A stretch of 43,027 nt of DNA from a virus: positions 1 to 43,027 of IMG/VR virus record IMGVR_UViG_3300020202_000130. One strand, written 5' to 3'. This document shows positions 13,058 through 27,536 of this stretch, piece by piece. The position numbers and the translations under genes are program-made. The number at the start of each line of letters is the position of its first letter. Position 1 is the first letter of the stretch. The notes under the pieces were generated by a model. The model searched no databases. It was not told the DNA's origin and saw only the letters and a list, made by a program, of their open reading frames with translations.

Positions 13058-13324
13058 TTGACCTTACGACGCGCCGCAAAGGTAGACGCAAATCAAGCCG
13101 AGGTCGTGGAGGCTCTGCGTCGTTGCGGGGTGGCGGTGGAGATCATCGGCTTCCCGGTGGATCTGCTGTGCTGCGATCAGCGGGGAAAGCTATCGCTGGT
13201 GGAGATTAAGACTGACGAGGGGCGATTGACTAAGCAACAGGTTGAATTTATCGCTCGATGGCCCGGACAGGTGCATGTCGTTCGCGGCCCGCAGGAAGCC
13301 GTTAAGGCGGTGGTGGGCGAATGA
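13058..13324 (+). CDS. VRR-NUC-like small nuclease
   Basis: The TTG start at 13058 has GGAGGGG five bases upstream. The 88-residue product begins MTLRRAAKVDANQAEVVEAL and continues with GFPVDLLCCDQRGKLSLVEIK and RLTKQQVEFI. Asp in GFPVDL, the ExK of VEIK and the downstream Gln helix match the minimal PD-(D/E)XK fold of phage VRR-NUC or Holliday-junction-resolvase-like enzymes. It probably processes branched replication or recombination intermediates. A 67-codon overlapping frame at 13006-13209 has poor composition and may only aid coupling. Confidence 0.75.
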   Translation: MTLRRAAKVDANQAEVVEALRRCGVAVEIIGFPVDLLCCDQRGKLSLVEIKTDEGRLTKQQVEFIARWPGQVHVVRGPQEAVKAVVGE

Positions 13325-13980
13325 AGTCATGCGTGCTCATAGGCTCGGGCTCAACGATTGGCTCGTACATCGCCACTGTGATGCGTGCCGAGGGATGGGA
13401 TGTGTCTGGCTGGCAGCGCGATCAAGCCATGCCTAAAACGCCGTGGGATGTTGCTCTTTGCGCTATCGGCACAGTCGCCCCGGTGGGGTTATGGCATCAG
13501 GTAGACCATTTCGATTGGCTTGTCGGGGTAGACGCAAACCTTTTGCAGCCCGTACTGCGGTTGCGTCAAATCTGGTCGAATCGTAAGCCGGATGCCGCAG
13601 TCTGCTTCCTCGCCGGCTCCAATCCCAACAAGGTCATGCCCGGCTACTCCGCCTACAACGCCGGGAAGATGGCGCTGCTAAAGGTGGTTGAGCAGCTTGA
13701 CCACGAAACACCGGACGCCAAGTTCTTCGCTCTGGGGCCTGGGTACATCCCAACGAAGATCCACAAGCCGACCATCGAGGCGGGCTGGCCGAATGAGCGG
13801 ATAGCCCAAGGCGGGGGAACGCCGATGGAGAAGGTCTACGACTGCCTCAAGTGGTGCTTGGAACAGCCGAAGGAAGTTATCGGTGGTCGGAATATCTGCG
13901 TCAGCGATCCCTACGGGCCTGAACTTGCTGAACGGCTGAAGAACAACAACGCACTCTACAAACTGCGGAGGGTGGAGTGA
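13321..13980 (+). CDS. SDR-family oxidoreductase
   Basis: A 219-residue short-chain dehydrogenase/reductase. The Rossmann glycine motif is GSGSTIG at residues 8-14. Ser100 (LAGSNPN) and the YxxxK pair Tyr112/Lys116 (SAYNAGKMALLK) supply the active site. GPGYIPT at about 140 is the usual loop after the sixth strand. It should use NAD(P)H to reduce or oxidise a keto/hydroxyl group, probably on a nucleotide sugar or a product of the ThDP enzyme two genes downstream. ATGA overlap couples it to the nuclease gene; it opens the cargo cassette. Confidence 0.85.
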   Translation: MKSCVLIGSGSTIGSYIATVMRAEGWDVSGWQRDQAMPKTPWDVALCAIGTVAPVGLWHQVDHFDWLVGVDANLLQPVLRLRQIWSNRKPDAAVCFLAGSNPNKVMPGYSAYNAGKMALLKVVEQLDHETPDAKFFALGPGYIPTKIHKPTIEAGWPNERIAQGGGTPMEKVYDCLKWCLEQPKEVIGGRNICVSDPYGPELAERLKNNNALYKLRRVE

Positions 13981-14192
13981 AGGGTAATGTTCCTGCAGTG
14001 AATTTCTATATGTCCGATTGGGGCGAATTCGAGATGCCGCTTGGGTTGTACGAGAAAACCAAGTGGCGTTACGTTGAGGTTGAAACGATGTCTGGCAGGA
14101 GGATTGTTTCCGAGCCGGCACCGACAAGCGATAACCATGAGTTTTTCACTTGGCTGCATGGTGAGGAAGTCAAGGCGGGCAAGCCGGAATGA
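13977..14192 (+). CDS. Small cassette protein of unknown function (71 aa)
   Basis: Begins at a GTG overlapping the SDR stop (GTGA) and ends in an ATGA overlap with the ThDP gene. The product has aromatic-rich beta character (VNFYMSDWGEFEM, KTKWRYVEVET) and no membrane segment. Its fixed place between two enzymes suggests a cassette-specific partner, perhaps an enzyme accessory, but no family was recognised. Confidence 0.6.
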   Translation: MKGNVPAVNFYMSDWGEFEMPLGLYEKTKWRYVEVETMSGRRIVSEPAPTSDNHEFFTWLHGEEVKAGKPE

Positions 14193-14701
14193 AGGTTAGC
14201 GATGCCGTGGCCGAATTCCTTGCCCGCCACGTTAAGCACGTTTTCTGCGTTAGCGGCGGCGCTTCGCTGCATCTGATCCATTCCATCGCGGCGAGGGATG
14301 ACATCAAGTTCGTATGCCCGCAGCACGAACAATCAGCGGGCTTTATGGCCGATGCCTACGCGAGACTTACCGGCTTCGGGGTTGCCATTGCCACCAGCGG
14401 ACCAGGGGCCAGCAACTTCGCTACCCCCATCCTTGCCGCCTACTGCGATTCCGTCCCGGTTCTTTTCCTGACCGGCAACCAGACCCGCGAGCGGATGAAG
14501 GACTACGGCACTAGAGGTTACGGCTTCCAAGCAAGCAAGGTGATTGAGCGGCACAAGCACGAACTGAAGTACGCGGCGCATGTAGACGACCCCGGAGCCA
14601 TCCTTGCCGAGCTGCAAACGGCGGTAACGATAGCCAAGGGCGGAAGGCCGGGGCCGGTATTGCTGGATTTGCCGGACGACGTACAGAGGGCCGAATGCTA
14701 G
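14189..14701 (+). CDS. ThDP-dependent enzyme, PYR-domain subunit (acetolactate-synthase-like)
   Basis: This 170-residue protein equals the N-terminal pyrimidine-binding domain of the acetolactate synthase family. It has VSGGASLHLI, then CPQHEQSAGFMADAYARL with the catalytic Glu47, SGPGASN and GRPGPVLLDLP. Glu47 activates the thiamine diphosphate cofactor. In most relatives this domain is fused to the central and PP domains as one chain of about 550 residues. Here the gene stops at the domain border and overlaps the next gene by 7 bases in the -1 frame. Either it forms a two-subunit enzyme or the split is a frameshift. Confidence 0.85.
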   Translation: MKVSDAVAEFLARHVKHVFCVSGGASLHLIHSIAARDDIKFVCPQHEQSAGFMADAYARLTGFGVAIATSGPGASNFATPILAAYCDSVPVLFLTGNQTRERMKDYGTRGYGFQASKVIERHKHELKYAAHVDDPGAILAELQTAVTIAKGGRPGPVLLDLPDDVQRAEC

Positions 14702-15810
14702 AAACCCTAGACCTTCAGCACGTCGTAATGGACATCGCCGGGGAGATTATGACGGCGCAATGCCCTCTCCTCCTTTACGGGGCGGGCATCCACCAAGCCG
14801 GCGCGGAGCACGAAGCAAAGGCGGTAGCGCAAATCTCCTGCGTGCCGGTGATCGGGACTTGGGGCGCAGCGGACCTTATGCCCGAGGTAGGTACGTTCGG
14901 GACGCACGGCAACAAGTTCGCAAACCTTGCTGTTCAAAACGCTGACTACATCCTCTGCGTAGGCTCAAGACTCGACACGAAAGCGACAGGTCATCCTGCC
15001 AGCAGCTTCGCACCAAAAGCTAGGCTGGTGATGGTCGATATAGACGGGGCAGAACTCGACAAGATGGAGAAGATCGGGAGGCCCCTATATCGAGCGATCC
15101 GGGCGGATGCGCGGGAGTTCCTGATGATGCTGGATCGTCACTTGATGGCGATGGCGCAGTCCGAGGAAACATGGCCGTCGTTCGGCATGTGGCGCTCGGA
15201 GATTGCGGCGTGGAAGAAAGATCATCCGGTATGCAACGAAGGCCCTTACGAGTTCGTACAGCGTCTAGGGAAGTACCTGAAGCCCGATGATGTGATCGTG
15301 AGCGATACCGGCTGCTCGCTCGCCTGGATGATGCAGGCGTTCCAGTTCAGCGGGCAGCGGTTCGTACACGCTTTCAATCAGACCCCGATGGGTTACGGGC
15401 TTCCTGCGGCGATAGGAGCGGCGTTCGCTACGGGCCGGCGGGTGATCCTCATAACAGGCGATGGCGGGCTGTCGGTGAACATCACCGAGCTTGCGACGCT
15501 GGCGCGGCACAAGTTGCCGGTGAAGATCATTCTGTTCAACAACAAAGGGCATGCGATGTGCCGCCAAACACAGCGGCAATGGCTTGGCGGCGAGTATCCG
15601 TCTACATCATATGACGGCGGCTTGGCGTGCCCAGATTTTCTGTCGATAGCAGAAGCGTATGGCCTGCATATTGGGTTCAGCGAATGGGAGCGCGGCTTGG
15701 AGTACGTCATGGGTGTCGCCGGGCCGGCTCTGCTAGAGGTGAGAGTGGCCAAAGAGTGGGGCGTTGAAGGCCAGATCAAGTTCGGCGAACCGCTCGCGGA
15801 GGCCGCATGA
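14695..15810 (+). CDS. ThDP-dependent enzyme, central and PP-domain subunit
   Basis: The 371-residue product supplies the rest of the enzyme. The central domain (GTHGNKFANLAVQNADYILC, GSRLDTKATG, MVDIDGAEL) matches the ALS-type FAD/nucleotide domain. The PP domain (PMGYGLPAAIGAAFATGRRV) holds the cofactor motif from GDG at 255-257 to NN at 282-283. The details resemble the ThDP enzymes of O-antigen and capsule loci more than housekeeping IlvB. Likely chemistry is C-C bond formation with pyruvate-derived acetyl transfer, as in YerE of yersiniose synthesis, but substrate is inference. No regulatory IlvN-like gene is present. Confidence 0.85.
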   Translation: MLETLDLQHVVMDIAGEIMTAQCPLLLYGAGIHQAGAEHEAKAVAQISCVPVIGTWGAADLMPEVGTFGTHGNKFANLAVQNADYILCVGSRLDTKATGHPASSFAPKARLVMVDIDGAELDKMEKIGRPLYRAIRADAREFLMMLDRHLMAMAQSEETWPSFGMWRSEIAAWKKDHPVCNEGPYEFVQRLGKYLKPDDVIVSDTGCSLAWMMQAFQFSGQRFVHAFNQTPMGYGLPAAIGAAFATGRRVILITGDGGLSVNITELATLARHKLPVKIILFNNKGHAMCRQTQRQWLGGEYPSTSYDGGLACPDFLSIAEAYGLHIGFSEWERGLEYVMGVAGPALLEVRVAKEWGVEGQIKFGEPLAEAA

Positions 15811-16496
15811 ACACTCGCGGCCTGAGCATCCCCTTCGTTTCGTTCGGCAACGTCACCAGCGATGACCTGTTCTGCGACAAAGAGCAGGCCATCTTTGATC
15901 TCTACGAAAAATGGGGCCATGAGCAGCGCTATCACGCGGCCTTAGACATAGGCGCAAACATAGGTGTGCATTCCTGCCTGATGATGAGAGCGGGGATGAG
16001 GGTTGATGCTTTCGAGCCAGACCCGGAGCACTTCAAGATCCTGCGGCAGAACTTGAGCGGCCACGACAAAACGCAGTGGACGGCCTATCAAGCGGCCATG
16101 TCAGACCGCAACGGCACGGCGGTATTCGTCCGGGTCAAAGGCAACACCACCGGCTCGCACTTGAAAGGCGACAAGGCCCCTTACGGCGATCTCGAGGAAT
16201 TTCCGGTTCGCGTGATGGACTGCCGCCCCTGGTTCGATTGGGCGAACTTCGCAAAGATCGATTGCGAGGGCCATGAGGCGCGATTGCTTACGACAGTTGA
16301 TCCTGCGTCCTGCCGCTGCGAGTTCTTGGTTGAGGTCGGCACGCTGATGAACGCCGAGAGGATCTTTGGCCATTTCGTCGGCACGGATTACGGCATGTGG
16401 TCGCAAAAGTCTGGATGGGGAGAGGTCAAGGCTCTAGCGGATATGCCAATGCATCACTCCCACGGTGCTTTGTTCATCGGCAGGAGCGCGCCGTGA
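15807..16496 (+). CDS. FkbM-family methyltransferase
   Basis: The 229-residue product has the SAM-binding motif LDIGANIGVHS at about residues 46-56 and the acidic FEPDPEHF at 69-76. The FkbM hallmark KIDCEGHEARLL lies in its second half. FkbM enzymes transfer methyl groups to hydroxyls, very often of sugars. The ATGA overlap places it on the same message as the SDR and ThDP genes, so it probably O-methylates the sugar they make. It is slightly shorter than many relatives but all core motifs are present. Confidence 0.87.
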   Translation: MNTRGLSIPFVSFGNVTSDDLFCDKEQAIFDLYEKWGHEQRYHAALDIGANIGVHSCLMMRAGMRVDAFEPDPEHFKILRQNLSGHDKTQWTAYQAAMSDRNGTAVFVRVKGNTTGSHLKGDKAPYGDLEEFPVRVMDCRPWFDWANFAKIDCEGHEARLLTTVDPASCRCEFLVEVGTLMNAERIFGHFVGTDYGMWSQKSGWGEVKALADMPMHHSHGALFIGRSAP

Positions 16497-16813
16497 AACT
16501 GATACGCGACCGCTGGCGCAGGCCCATCGTTGTCGAGGGCATGGAGTACGAGGGTGTTAGGGATGCGGCGAGGGCGCTCGGAGTCAGCACCACGACCGTT
16601 TACCGAATGATGGGAGAGGACTGGAGGGTTGACCGTGGGGCACCAAAACCAAGAAAACCAAGAGCACGTCGGCGTGTCAAACGATTCGCAGGAATCGACT
16701 GCGGCTGGCTCCTCCCAAGACGGGACGGATCTGCGCGTGGTGAAGGCGCTAATCGATTGGCTGGGGGAGTACGCAGCAATTCAGAAGAGGGCGGGGCGCT
16801 GGGTGTTCGCTGA
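16493..16813 (+). CDS. NUMOD/HTH-like DNA-binding protein
   Basis: GTG start at 16493 overlaps the FkbM stop. Residues 10-45 (RPIVVEGMEYEGVRDAARAL then GVSTTTVYRMMG) are a DNA-binding repeat like the C-terminal unit of the protein at 11597. The last 60 residues are very basic and low in complexity and overlap another frame by 179 bases, so the true C-terminus is uncertain; a frameshift could end it earlier. Probably a regulator. Confidence 0.55.
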   Translation: MKLIRDRWRRPIVVEGMEYEGVRDAARALGVSTTTVYRMMGEDWRVDRGAPKPRKPRARRRVKRFAGIDCGWLLPRRDGSARGEGANRLAGGVRSNSEEGGALGVR

Positions 16814-18167: not shown

Positions 18168-18242
18168 TGCGCGGTGGAGCAGGGGCAGCTCGATTGGCTC
18201 ATTACCAATAGGTCGCAGGTTCAAGTCCTGCCCGCGCTTCCA
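18168..18242 (+). tRNA. tRNA with CAT anticodon, initiator-like (tRNA-fMet/Met)
   Basis: A full cloverleaf of 75 bases. Acceptor strands TGCGCGG and CCGCGCT pair in six positions with a T1-T72 mismatch. The D-arm is GAGC/GCTC with A11-T24, the anticodon stem ATTGG/CCAAT carries loop CTCATTA (anticodon 18200-18202), the variable loop is AGGTC, and the T-arm is GCAGG/CCTGC with TTCAAGT. CCA is encoded. The unpaired 1-72 position and purine-11/pyrimidine-24 pair mark bacterial initiator tRNA. Only two of the usual three G-C pairs adjoin the anticodon loop, and base 73 is T rather than A. A tRNA-Ile2 role is less likely. Confidence 0.9.
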
Positions 18243-19030
18243 TGACTAGATGGGCGCTGTACGACTTGCGGATCGGCCCGCCGTCGTTCGACTTCCTGAC
18301 CTTCCTAGTTCTCGCCAAGTACCACGGCGCGGAGGCGGTATGGCTGGTTCCTGGCATCAACGAAGCAAAGCTTCAGTGGTACACCCCTGCAGAGCAGGAG
18401 AGGCGCCTTAGAAGCATCGTAGAACCAGCTATGAGGCTCTACGGCATGCGCTGGAAGATCGAGCCGCTATCGGGTAGTCCCAAGGATTACGACCTTTGCT
18501 GGCCCCCGTACGCAAGATCCGGGAAGGCGATCCACAACGGCTACATGGTCGGCTGGCTAAGGAGCATCAAAGCCCCGGAGCCGTTCATGCCGAGCGATGA
18601 AGCAAAGAGCAAGGCAGCGGACAGGCTTCGCGGGAAACGGATCGTTTGCCACCTTCGCAAGACGAAGTATCAGGACGCGCGGAACTCAGGCAAAGATTGG
18701 GAGCGGTGGGCCTTAGACCACAACGCCTACGTCCTGAAGGACGAACCAATCGACCTTGAAGAGCGCTGCGCGATTCACGAACTGGCGGAATTGAACATCG
18801 GAGTAAACGCGGGGCCGATGGTTCTCTCCGAGTATTCCAAGCACCGGCCATACATCATCCTCAAGAAGCTGGCCGGGGAAATCTCAACAAACACAGAGTT
18901 CTACGCATGGCAGGGCTGGTATCCGGGGGACCAATACCCTTGGGCTAGTCCCAAGCAAATGCTGGTGTGGAACGACCGGGACGATTACCAAACCATTGAG
19001 GACGCTTATCAACGCTGGTTGATGGCTTAA
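18242..19030 (+). CDS. GT-B-like glycosyltransferase (candidate)
   Basis: The 262-residue product resembles sugar-transferase-like proteins of surface-polysaccharide loci. It has a Rossmann-like N-half (WALYDLRIGPPSFDFLTFLV, AVWLVPG) and a C-half with KRIVCHLRKTKY, then AELNIGVNAGPMVLSEYSKH and YIILK. The NxGPMxL loop is like the acceptor/donor-site loop of GT9 and fucosyltransferase-type folds. The A of its ATG is the last A of the tRNA CCA end and no ribosome-binding site is present. The nearest in-frame alternative, TTG at codon 9, is no better. Exact activity unknown. Confidence 0.65.
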   Translation: MTRWALYDLRIGPPSFDFLTFLVLAKYHGAEAVWLVPGINEAKLQWYTPAEQERRLRSIVEPAMRLYGMRWKIEPLSGSPKDYDLCWPPYARSGKAIHNGYMVGWLRSIKAPEPFMPSDEAKSKAADRLRGKRIVCHLRKTKYQDARNSGKDWERWALDHNAYVLKDEPIDLEERCAIHELAELNIGVNAGPMVLSEYSKHRPYIILKKLAGEISTNTEFYAWQGWYPGDQYPWASPKQMLVWNDRDDYQTIEDAYQRWLMA

Positions 19031-24780: not shown

Positions 24781-25770
24781 ATGGCTCAACTTACTGGCAC
24801 TACCGATTCCTACCGCGTAGGCTCGGGCGGCGGCAACCGCGAAGACCTTGAGGACGTGATCTGGGAACTGGAACCCCTGGACACGTACTGCCTTACGAAC
24901 TTCGAGCGCGTCAAGGCCGAAGCGACCTTCCACGAATGGGAGACCGACACGCTCGTCGGTGTCACCGCCAACCGGCAACTGGAAGGCGACGACGCGACGA
25001 TGGTGACGGTTGCCTCTCCCGCTCGGGTTGGCAACTATTGCCAGATCAGCCGCAAGACGTTCCTCATCTCGGGCACTCAGGAAGTGGTGTCCAAGGCTGG
25101 CCGCAAGTCGGAGATCAAGCGGCAGCTCAAAAAGCAGATGAAGGAGCTGAAGAACGACATGGAATACGCCCTGGTGCGTAACCAGGCGTCCTCGGCTGGT
25201 GGTTCGGCGACTGCCCGTTCCTCGGGCGGCATCGAGTCGTGGATTCCCTCGACCGACAACTCCGGTAACGGAGTGAAGGCGACGACCACGGCCTCGGGCT
25301 CCACCGCTGCGTTTGCGAACAACGTGGTTTCCTCGCCGACCGATGGTTCGACCACTGGCGCGTTCAACGAGACGCAGTTCCTTGCGGCTCTGCAACTCGC
25401 GTGGGAGGACGGCGGCAACGCGACGGCAATCCTGATGAACGCGGGGAACAAGCGTACTGCGTCCTCGTTCGCTGGGGTTGCGGATCAGACCCACAACGTG
25501 ACTGGCAAGACGAAGCCTGTCATCGCCGGCTCGGTGGATGTGTACGTGTCGGAGTTCGGCACGCACAACTTCATCCTCCACCGCCATGTGCGCGGTGCAA
25601 CGGTGCTGTGCCTCGACCCGAATTACTGGGCTGTCGGCATGCTCCGCTCGCCGTTCATGGAAGAACTGGCGAAGACCGGCGACGGCGAGAAGCGTCAGCT
25701 CATCGCTGAGTACACGCTTATCAGCCGTAACCACAACGCCTCTGCAAAAGTGGCGAACTGCGTCGGCTAA
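24781..25770 (+). CDS. Major capsid protein, SU10/DUF5309-like
   Basis: The 329-residue product matches the SU10-type branch of the HK97 fold. Recognisable blocks are REDLEDVIWELEPLDTYCL, VKAEATFHEWETDTL, NYCQISRKTFLISGTQEVV, KELKNDMEYALVRN, and the C-terminal LRSPFMEELAKTGDGEKRQL region. It is the building block of the icosahedral head. Start codon follows directly on the scaffold stop. A terminator-like hairpin after the gene may set expression of downstream genes below that of the capsid. Confidence 0.93.
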   Translation: MAQLTGTTDSYRVGSGGGNREDLEDVIWELEPLDTYCLTNFERVKAEATFHEWETDTLVGVTANRQLEGDDATMVTVASPARVGNYCQISRKTFLISGTQEVVSKAGRKSEIKRQLKKQMKELKNDMEYALVRNQASSAGGSATARSSGGIESWIPSTDNSGNGVKATTTASGSTAAFANNVVSSPTDGSTTGAFNETQFLAALQLAWEDGGNATAILMNAGNKRTASSFAGVADQTHNVTGKTKPVIAGSVDVYVSEFGTHNFILHRHVRGATVLCLDPNYWAVGMLRSPFMEELAKTGDGEKRQLIAEYTLISRNHNASAKVANCVG

Positions 25771-25827: not shown

Positions 25828-26229
25828 ATGAGCCATATCAGGTGGACGGAATATGACCCTTATTCTGGGGTTACAGAGATCAACAACGCCTACGACGACG
25901 ATGATCTCGTTCACGTCACCTACCAGCAGGACGTAGAGCCGCTTCTGGCCCTTACGGCGGAAACGAGAAACACGCGGTCAGCAGACGACCCTAAGAAGGG
26001 TCTTAGGAAGTATTGCTCCATTCCGGTAACGGTCCAACACGAACTGCTCAAAAAAGGGATCAACGTATACAACCCGGATCACATGCCCGCAGTGCTGCGG
26101 GAGATCAACGAGAACTATCCGCGACTCAAGTACACGGAAAAGACACACGCGCTTGGGTCAAGAAGGGCATCGAGTACGCAGAAGCAGGAGACCTCGACCG
26201 AGCCTGGGCCTATTGTGATCGTGCCCTAA
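25828..26229 (+). CDS. Conserved capsid-adjacent protein with aberrant C-terminus
   Basis: The first 109 residues form a conserved podovirus protein (VTYQQDVEPLLALTAETRN, KKGLRKYCSIPVTVQHELLK, VLREINENYPRLKYTEKTH) found after the capsid gene. Relatives I know end around this KTH. Here the frame reads on for about 24 low-complexity residues (ALGSRRASSTQKQ...). At this point the TPR protein continues in the -1 frame. The original stop was therefore probably lost when the next gene was joined on. Function in the virion is unknown. Confidence 0.75.
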   Translation: MSHIRWTEYDPYSGVTEINNAYDDDDLVHVTYQQDVEPLLALTAETRNTRSADDPKKGLRKYCSIPVTVQHELLKKGINVYNPDHMPAVLREINENYPRLKYTEKTHALGSRRASSTQKQETSTEPGPIVIVP

Positions 26230-27536
26230 AGGCAGACCCAGACGATCTGGGGGCGCTGATCTGCGCTACCAAGATCAATTACAAGGCGTGGCGGTTGACG
26301 ACCGCGTATCAGTTTGCAAGGCGAGCGGCTGGAATAGGAAGCAAGAACTCCTACTGCTGGGGGAACTTGGCGAACATCGAGCATGAGCTTTACAGGTTCG
26401 ATCAGGCCGAGTTCTGCATAGAGCATGGGTTGAGGGTAGCGAATAGCCGCAGGGAGTATGCGTTTCTCAGGAAGATCCAGGCTGCGCTATTCGTGCAGAT
26501 GGGCGATTGGGAGCGGGCTGTAATAGCCGGAAGAATTGCCTGCGCTCTGAACGACGACGCCAAGAACCGGGCGAATCTCGGAATGGCGTTGCTGGGGGTT
26601 GGGAAGTGGTCCGAGGCGTGGCCGCTGTATGTGGAGATTTCCGGTCGGGATCAGTCCAGCCGGCGGATGCAGTATGTAGACGAGCCTGCTTGGGATGGGG
26701 CCAAGGGCAAGAGCATTGTGGTCTACGACGTGCAGGGCATTGGAGATGCGATCTCCTTTGCGTCGATAGTCCCCGACGTGCTTAAGGACTGCAAGGTTGT
26801 GATGGATGTAAGGCCACAGCTCGCGGGGCTGTTCAAAAGGTCATTCCCAGATGCGGAGGTTTACGGCTCCTTCAGCGGGATAGGGAGTGGGCTTGAGGCT
26901 GGGATAGGCGAGGATTGGCGCTCGCGGCACAAGATCGAAGCGTCGATAGGGCTGGATGGCCTTGCGAGGTTCTACAGGCCGAATCCCGAGTCCTGCCCTG
27001 GCACGCCTTACCTGAAGGCTGATCCGGTAAAGGCCGCGAAGTGGAAGCGGAAGTTCAGCAGGGAGAAAAAGCCGGTTATCGGGATCGCGTGGTCTGGCGG
27101 GATGGAGCACACGCATGCAAAGCATCGGGTTTGGAAGTTGAGCGAGCTTCTGCCGATCTTCAAGGCTGTTGATGCTATCTGGGTGAGCCTCCAGTACAAG
27201 GACGCTGAAGCGGAAATAGCGGAGTTCCGCATGCAGCATCCTGAGATTGATCTGCGGCAGTACAAGAAGGCGACCATCACGAAGGACTATGACGATACAG
27301 CTTCGTTGGTGGAGGCGCTTGATCTGGTGGTTGCCATGCAAACCGCTGTCATCCATTTAGCCGGCGCGCTGGGGAAAGAATGCTGGTGCTTCGTGAACAA
27401 GCATAGCCAATGGCGCTATGGACCGAATACGCAAAATACGCTTCCCTGGTACTCCAGCGTGAGGCTGTTCAGGAACATTGACGGCTGGCCGATTGAGCAA
27501 GCCGCAAACGAACTCAAGGAGCGGTTTAGCGCTTAA
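26013..27536 (+). CDS. TPR plus GT9-like glycosyltransferase, no own start
   Basis: Real protein sequence begins near 26145 (AWVKKGIEYAEAGDLDRAWA) and continues for about 460 residues. Tetratricopeptide-like helices cover roughly the first 170. A GT-B/GT9-like domain follows, with YDVQGIGDAISFASIVPDVL, KPVIGIAWSGGMEHTHAKHR and LVVAMQTAVIHLAGALGKEC. The frame opens only at a TTG (26013) inside the preceding gene and has no ATG or GTG before the TPR region. Expression may depend on -1 slippage at GGAAAAG (26137-26143), giving a fusion. Expected to transfer a sugar; target unknown. Confidence 0.75.
   Translation: MLHSGNGPTRTAQKRDQRIQPGSHARSAAGDQRELSATQVHGKDTRAWVKKGIEYAEAGDLDRAWAYCDRALKADPDDLGALICATKINYKAWRLTTAYQFARRAAGIGSKNSYCWGNLANIEHELYRFDQAEFCIEHGLRVANSRREYAFLRKIQAALFVQMGDWERAVIAGRIACALNDDAKNRANLGMALLGVGKWSEAWPLYVEISGRDQSSRRMQYVDEPAWDGAKGKSIVVYDVQGIGDAISFASIVPDVLKDCKVVMDVRPQLAGLFKRSFPDAEVYGSFSGIGSGLEAGIGEDWRSRHKIEASIGLDGLARFYRPNPESCPGTPYLKADPVKAAKWKRKFSREKKPVIGIAWSGGMEHTHAKHRVWKLSELLPIFKAVDAIWVSLQYKDAEAEIAEFRMQHPEIDLRQYKKATITKDYDDTASLVEALDLVVAMQTAVIHLAGALGKECWCFVNKHSQWRYGPNTQNTLPWYSSVRLFRNIDGWPIEQAANELKERFSA

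Follow-up and report, generated by a model that had tools for sequence, protein, structure and literature searches.

A conserved phage cassette with a two-gene thiamine diphosphate enzyme as a candidate module for nucleotide-sugar tailoring

The 43,027-base IMG/VR virus record IMGVR_UViG_3300020202_000130, analysed over its whole length and called the window below, carries at positions 13321-16496 a cassette that encodes a short-chain dehydrogenase/reductase (SDR), a thiamine diphosphate (ThDP) enzyme divided over two genes and an FkbM-type methyltransferase. We found that this cassette is conserved in other phages and, judged from its sequence, it is most likely active in sugar tailoring. Our confidence is evenly divided on the fuller reading, in which the cassette is a phage-encoded module that tailors a nucleotide sugar and the product is put on the virion.

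The cassette and its conservation

Seven rightward genes run from an open reading frame (ORF) resembling VRR-NUC to a helix-turn-helix (HTH) protein, with successive overlaps of 4, 4, 4, 7, 4 and 4 bp. The ORF coordinates thus confirm the layout described in an earlier note on this DNA, a cassette joined by 4-7 bp overlaps between a nuclease gene and a regulator gene.

13058-13324 (+), VRR-NUC-like ORF, directly upstream of the cassette
13321-13980 (+), SDR-family oxidoreductase, 219 aa, YxxxK present, homologues in relatives
13977-14192 (+), 71-aa protein of unknown function, no family match
14189-14701 (+), Pyr (N) domain of the ThDP enzyme in its own gene (TPP_enzyme_N, 3e-31), activating Glu in CPQHEQ
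14680-14701 (+), junction of the ThDP genes, with AGAGG about 5 nt upstream of the ATG of the second subunit and the start/stop overlap ATGCTAG
14695-15810 (+), central and PP domains of the ThDP enzyme (TPP_enzyme_M, 1.2e-23; TPP_enzyme_C, 3.4e-33), GDG...NN motif
15807-16496 (+), FkbM-type S-adenosylmethionine methyltransferase, 229 aa (TIGR01444, 1.3e-23)
16493-16813, HTH protein, directly downstream of the FkbM gene

A single-protein scan with the central and PP half of the ThDP enzyme returned two IMG/VR contigs (58 and 51% identity); ORFs and alignments gave these first two relatives the same domain content as the window. Profile scans extended the set to 10 contigs, not counting the window and the damaged G012 but including G003 and G009, both cut by contig ends. 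The earlier note had proposed a search for the same gene order in other phages, and this order (SDR, ThDP enzyme, FkbM) is found in eight contigs besides the window, namely G001, G002, G004, G005, G006, G008, G011 and G012. G009 starts within the ThDP gene and retains FkbM. These relatives differ in phage backbone yet keep the set and its order, so the genes are not broken or absent in all close relatives. Where terminase, portal, scaffold or capsid genes were identified in a contig, the cassette adjoins them.

Furthermore, across phages the FkbM distances are correlated with those of the ThDP enzyme (r = 0.54, with 4 of 2000 permutations as high; the test ignores phylogenetic dependence and is indicative). 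ThDP distances also track those of the terminase, whereas SDR distances do not: the window SDR is nearest to those of G005-G007 (55-58%), and the window ThDP enzyme to those of G002 and G001 (60-62%). Because the SDR has been swapped between two types while its position in the cassette was kept, the sequences suggest selection for the gene set. The cassette is neither a chance cluster nor a product of decay.

The ThDP pair retains both the activating Glu and the cofactor motif (GDGG...FNN), so the loss of cofactor binding that the earlier note had considered is not seen in its sequence. The Trp in the substrate motif of acetohydroxyacid synthase (AHAS; KQWQ or RQWQ in ilvI and ilvG) is replaced by Thr in the window (CRQTQ within GHAMCRQTQ). 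In both maximum-likelihood trees the phage enzymes are united in a single clade (support 100/99) that groups with glycan-locus enzymes (100/98-100), apart from AHAS, which agrees with the resemblance to O-antigen and capsule-locus enzymes noticed earlier. The nearest bacterial enzyme found, L104, has 42.8% identity to the window and is the sister of the phage clade (100/99); about 600 bacterial genomes from two phyla were sampled, and closer bacterial relatives may exist. A bacterial row, L064, joined the phage clade basally, on a long branch, in the first tree and was dropped from the second with other long or partial rows. By its motifs and tree placement, the ThDP pair is intact and of glycan-locus type, not of acetolactate synthase type.

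As for the other products, FkbM scores above the TIGR01444 cut-off (84.1 vs 37.7 bits), and a PDB sequence search with it yielded nothing useful. The SDR has a weak Pfam match to adh_short (5e-5; 23.3 bits, below the cut-off of 26.6); its YxxxK motif reads YNAGK, a Ser near position 100 is not invariant in the alignment, and homologues (35-58% identity) occupy the same cassette position in nine other phages. The 71-aa protein, counted earlier as part of the set, is not shared by relatives: at the position of its gene, other phages carry another gene or no gene at all. It is probably not a core part of the cassette, and we rejected it as an enzyme subunit. In G010 (L092:10776-14492), also returned by the profile scans, FkbM stands beside GT2, a methyltransferase and a small SDR/RmlD-like gene, with no ThDP match.

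Nucleotide-sugar genes and the destination of the product

The cassette forms the last part of a longer operon in G005 and G006. Upstream lie SIS/GmhA-like, transaldolase-like and epimerase genes, together with genes resembling an HldE-C nucleotidyltransferase, an HldE-N/PfkB kinase and dTDP-glucose 4,6-dehydratase; a fragment-sized UDP-glucose-dehydrogenase-like gene sits between the SDR and ThDP genes. Domain searches were run on the G005 copies, and those of G006 were assigned by sequence similarity and order. A dehydratase is present in G002, and G012 contains stretches that resemble kinase, nucleotidyltransferase, SIS and dehydratase genes. Nearly all of these neighbour matches fall below the NCBIfam equivalog cut-offs, and "heptose-type" is used here as a statement of family, not of substrate.

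A comparable set surrounds the sister bacterial enzyme L104 (genome G487, Actinomycetota), where HldE, GmhA, dehydratase, epimerase, E1a/E1b, SDR, ThDP and GmhB genes form one run with homologous dehydratase (34%), epimerase (43%), SDR (33.5%) and ThDP enzyme (41-43%). Unlike in the phages, the ThDP enzyme is fused (602 aa), the methyltransferases are of UbiG/UbiE type with no FkbM match, and no phage genes were recognised there. Because the ThDP enzyme is of glycan type, phage relatives have longer operons and a similar operon accompanies the sister bacterial enzyme, tailoring of a nucleotide sugar by C-branching, reduction and O-methylation, on the analogy of yersiniose synthesis, is likely.

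C-branched sugars are known from bacterial lipopolysaccharide and antibiotics. The comparison with YerE/YerF made in the earlier note holds in part. It gains from the position of the cassette behind 4,6-dehydratase-like genes in relatives and from two contigs (L120 and L121) in which RfbH, above its curated cut-off, and 4,6-dehydratase-like genes lie next to a fused ThDP gene; RfbH makes the class of product on which YerE, whose acceptor is described in PMC12247030, acts. However, the neighbouring genes in the relatives suggest a nucleotide sugar of heptose type, not a CDP-3,6-dideoxyhexose.

From these data we infer which reactions take place, on what substrate, how the subunits assemble and what accepts the sugar. 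The keto sugar would be supplied by the host for the window phage, and in some relatives by the phage's own heptose-type pathway (GmhA, transaldolase, HldE and 4,6-dehydratase homologues). The two ThDP subunits would reassemble, decarboxylate a 2-keto acid such as pyruvate and attach the two-carbon unit to a nucleotide-bound 4-keto sugar at its keto group. The SDR would reduce the branch or the ring ketone and FkbM methylate a hydroxyl, after which the OGT/SPINDLY-like glycosyltransferase encoded at 26013, and perhaps the GT-B-like protein encoded at 18242, would move the sugar in the cytosol to a head protein, so that the virion becomes glycosylated. The genes concerned in this last step are:

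18242-19030 (+), GT-B-like putative glycosyltransferase, 262 aa, Foldseek matches including heptosyltransferases
24781-25770 (+), major capsid protein (phrog_1328, 7e-84), candidate glycan acceptor
26013-27536 (+), tetratricopeptide repeat (TPR) and GT-B protein resembling the protein O-glycosyltransferases OGT/SPINDLY, shortly downstream of the major capsid gene

Both transferase genes had been called glycosyltransferase-like from the sequence, a claim that the predicted folds support but Pfam, with no glycosyltransferase match, does not. For the product of 26013, Pfam gave TPR_2 (5e-8), and Foldseek with the AlphaFold2 (AF2) model (pLDDT 69) ranked SPINDLY (1.2e-9) and OGT at the top; the C-terminal, GT-B half matched the GT9 heptosyltransferase II (1psw) with a better TM-score. 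Whole-chain TM-scores are low, which makes this evidence of fold class. The protein is predicted to carry TPR repeats followed by a GT-B domain, as OGT and SPINDLY do, in a shorter chain, and is a putative transferase. The 18242 product has no Pfam match, and a PDB sequence search gave nothing useful; its model (pLDDT 71) matched GT-B proteins including WaaF, WaaC and TibC (E 1e-4 to 1e-3, TM-scores about 0.45), and the top Foldseek row was a chain of a photosynthetic supercomplex. We tentatively regard it as a GT-B-type glycosyltransferase. A homologue of 26013 likewise follows shortly after the capsid gene in G002 (contig L007), where an 18242 homologue adjoins it, and another lies near a virion structural gene of the head module in L112. 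In L108 (591-2297) an 18242 homologue is fused to a C-terminal region that, by eye, reads like MAF/DUF115 of flagellin glycosylation. A tRNA-Met (CAT) gene occupies window positions 18168-18242, its last base being the first of the 18242 gene.

The window encodes TerL, portal, scaffold and major capsid genes and, since it also has integrase and CI-like repressor genes, represents a temperate tailed phage; "podovirus-like" is our reading of its head genes, with no dedicated test behind the label. The cassette lies not beside the integrase but within a rightward series of overlapping genes running to the terminase. Between 10900 and 16450 on the rightward strand we found no promoter or convincing terminator, terminator-like sites being no commoner than in shuffles, and no tyrosine integrase or large serine recombinase was found in 12 relatives, of which four measure 38-44 kb and several are fragments. 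The missing promoter, the shuffle result, the head-gene setting and the integrase-less relatives favour expression with the late genes. Similarly, because the cassette lies with head and packaging genes, the relatives lack integrases, a GT-B-like protein is encoded at 18242 and the TPR protein beside the capsid gene is of the cytosolic protein-modifying OGT/SPINDLY type, the evidence favours decoration of the virion over conversion of the O-antigen, the two targets that the earlier note had left side by side; the capsid protein as acceptor is our suggestion.

Several observations weigh against the virion reading and the chemistry behind it. Homologues of the TPR protein and of 18242 were found in just one other cassette phage, G002, so that linkage is not strict, and the AF2 models are of moderate quality (pLDDT about 70). 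The window phage is temperate, and has no dehydratase, kinase or nucleotidyltransferase of its own. G007 carries the SDR and ThDP enzyme with no FkbM match. Finally, the phage ThDP clade falls outside the branch of L054, a JanthE-like enzyme (791 bits to PDB 8rph) that alone represents the characterised YerE-like clade on the tree, making JanthE, the nearest characterised enzyme, a mere cousin. The most specific version, in which uncultured podovirus-like phages use a two-subunit ThDP enzyme to make a C-branched, O-methylated heptose-type sugar and place it on their own capsid through an OGT/SPINDLY-like transferase, is offered as a tentative proposal. If it is true, phages make rare branched sugars, which may cloak the particle or change its adsorption, and own both a virus-borne branched-sugar pathway and a naturally split three-domain ThDP ligase, a natural subject for work on subunit assembly and biocatalysis.

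The main rival to virion decoration keeps the same sugar chemistry and sends the product into the host surface polysaccharide during lysogeny or infection, altering the phage receptor as in lysogenic conversion or superinfection exclusion. Temperate phages that carry O-antigen-modifying genes are well known, the window has its integrase and repressor, and the closest bacterial ThDP relatives sit in glycan loci; the location of the cassette in the terminase run, the integrase-less relatives and the lack of any recognised flippase or membrane transferase around the cassette argue the other way, and we consider this outcome rather unlikely. Less probable still is action on a substrate other than a glycan, for example a nucleotide or a small signalling molecule: the broad substrate ranges of the SDR and FkbM families and the absence of nucleotide-sugar genes from the window would allow it, whereas in relatives the cassette stands directly behind HldE-like and 4,6-dehydratase-like genes.

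Resemblance to acetolactate synthase and the division of the ThDP gene

Acetolactate synthases rank first in both NCBIfam and PDB sequence searches with the ThDP enzyme, which could make it an ordinary enzyme of this kind that boosts branched-chain amino acid metabolism. The scores are far too low for this: the fused homologue L018 reaches 357 of 538 bits against TIGR00118 and 347 of 738 against PRK08978, both below the equivalog cut-off, and the window halves score lower again, all far below the cut-offs. No gene for an AHAS regulatory subunit was recognised, and SDR and FkbM are the constant partners. Given also the tree and the Thr motif, we rejected the reading as an acetolactate synthase or auxiliary metabolic gene (AMG), and give it very little credence.

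The division of the ThDP enzyme over two genes, already claimed for the window, recurs after the Pyr domain in 9 of the 11 phages with a readable enzyme (window, G001, G002 and G004-G009); G012, with its further frame breaks, was excluded from this count and from the tree. In all nine a stop follows a ...DIPDDVQRA... motif at the end of the Pyr domain, a position that matches the domain end in AHAS structures, and the central/PP half opens in another frame. G002, G004, G005, G006 and apparently G009 have an overlap of about 26 nt in frame +1, whereas the window, G001, G007 and G008 have a short one of 4-7 nt in frame -1. In G011 the enzyme is a single 529-aa chain, and G003 likewise reads through. 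A programmed frameshift was rejected on this variation in relative frame and the two fused enzymes, and so was sequencing error, as a single error would not give nine phages a split with differing frame relations. The best interpretation of the pair is a genuine two-subunit enzyme whose translation is apparently coupled. That the split gene is a decaying remnant in a passively inserted moron is highly improbable: bacterial and two phage homologues are unsplit and G012 is further broken, but nine phages with 44-62% identity to the window share one domain boundary, invariant catalytic motifs and second halves with overlapping, apparently coupled starts. The G012 cassette itself (L048, L094-L096) runs across contig ends, its SDR and ThDP frames broken in places, possibly by damage or mis-sequencing.

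Known systems and further observations

YerE-like enzymes have been characterised as branching keto sugars (PMC12247030), and JanthE-like genes sit among epimerase and dehydratase genes of glycan loci (PMC12247030, PMC12188165). YerE of yersiniose A and JanthE share with the phage enzymes the three-domain ThDP fold, the activating Glu and a TQ-type motif where AHAS has WQ. They differ in being single chains where the phage enzyme mostly occupies two genes; JanthE has CDG where the phage enzyme has GDG, and the phage clade joins a bacterial enzyme from an HldE/GmhA operon. In mycobacteriophages Che8 and Rita, phage glycosyltransferases are described together with a major capsid protein that bears glycans (PMC11256854, citing Freeman et al. 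2023); these are phages of another type, and the passage on them mentions neither ThDP branching nor an SDR/FkbM cassette.

Among 50,697 phage records we found no convincing member of this ThDP type. Matches had 21-35% identity, and the annotated ones were acetolactate synthases in seemingly bacterial or contaminated records, which we infer to be host genes; plasmid searches returned mainly ordinary acetolactate synthases. In the open-licence literature we found no paper on a phage ThDP/FkbM glycosylation set like this one. One "acetolactate synthase" appears beside sugar genes in the AMG list of a 2021 paper on lake viruses, with no further analysis in that account (PMC8226683). According to a 2025 review on the formation of tertiary alcohols by ThDP enzymes, viruses have yet to be explored (PMC12247030).

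Glycan-type ThDP genes also occur in seven IMG/VR contigs of 23-91 kb (L117, L118, L120-L124), fused in the five examined. Four of them (L117, L120, L121 and L124) share this enzyme type with the window and have a dTDP-glucose 4,6-dehydratase-like gene; unlike in the window, the ThDP gene is unsplit, and their enzymes take separate tree positions. L117 encodes, besides its fused ThDP enzyme, a NeuB/PseI-like synthase. Elsewhere in the window, a 51-base stretch at 2733-2783 is 92% identical to Mycobacterium phage prophiGD43A-5.

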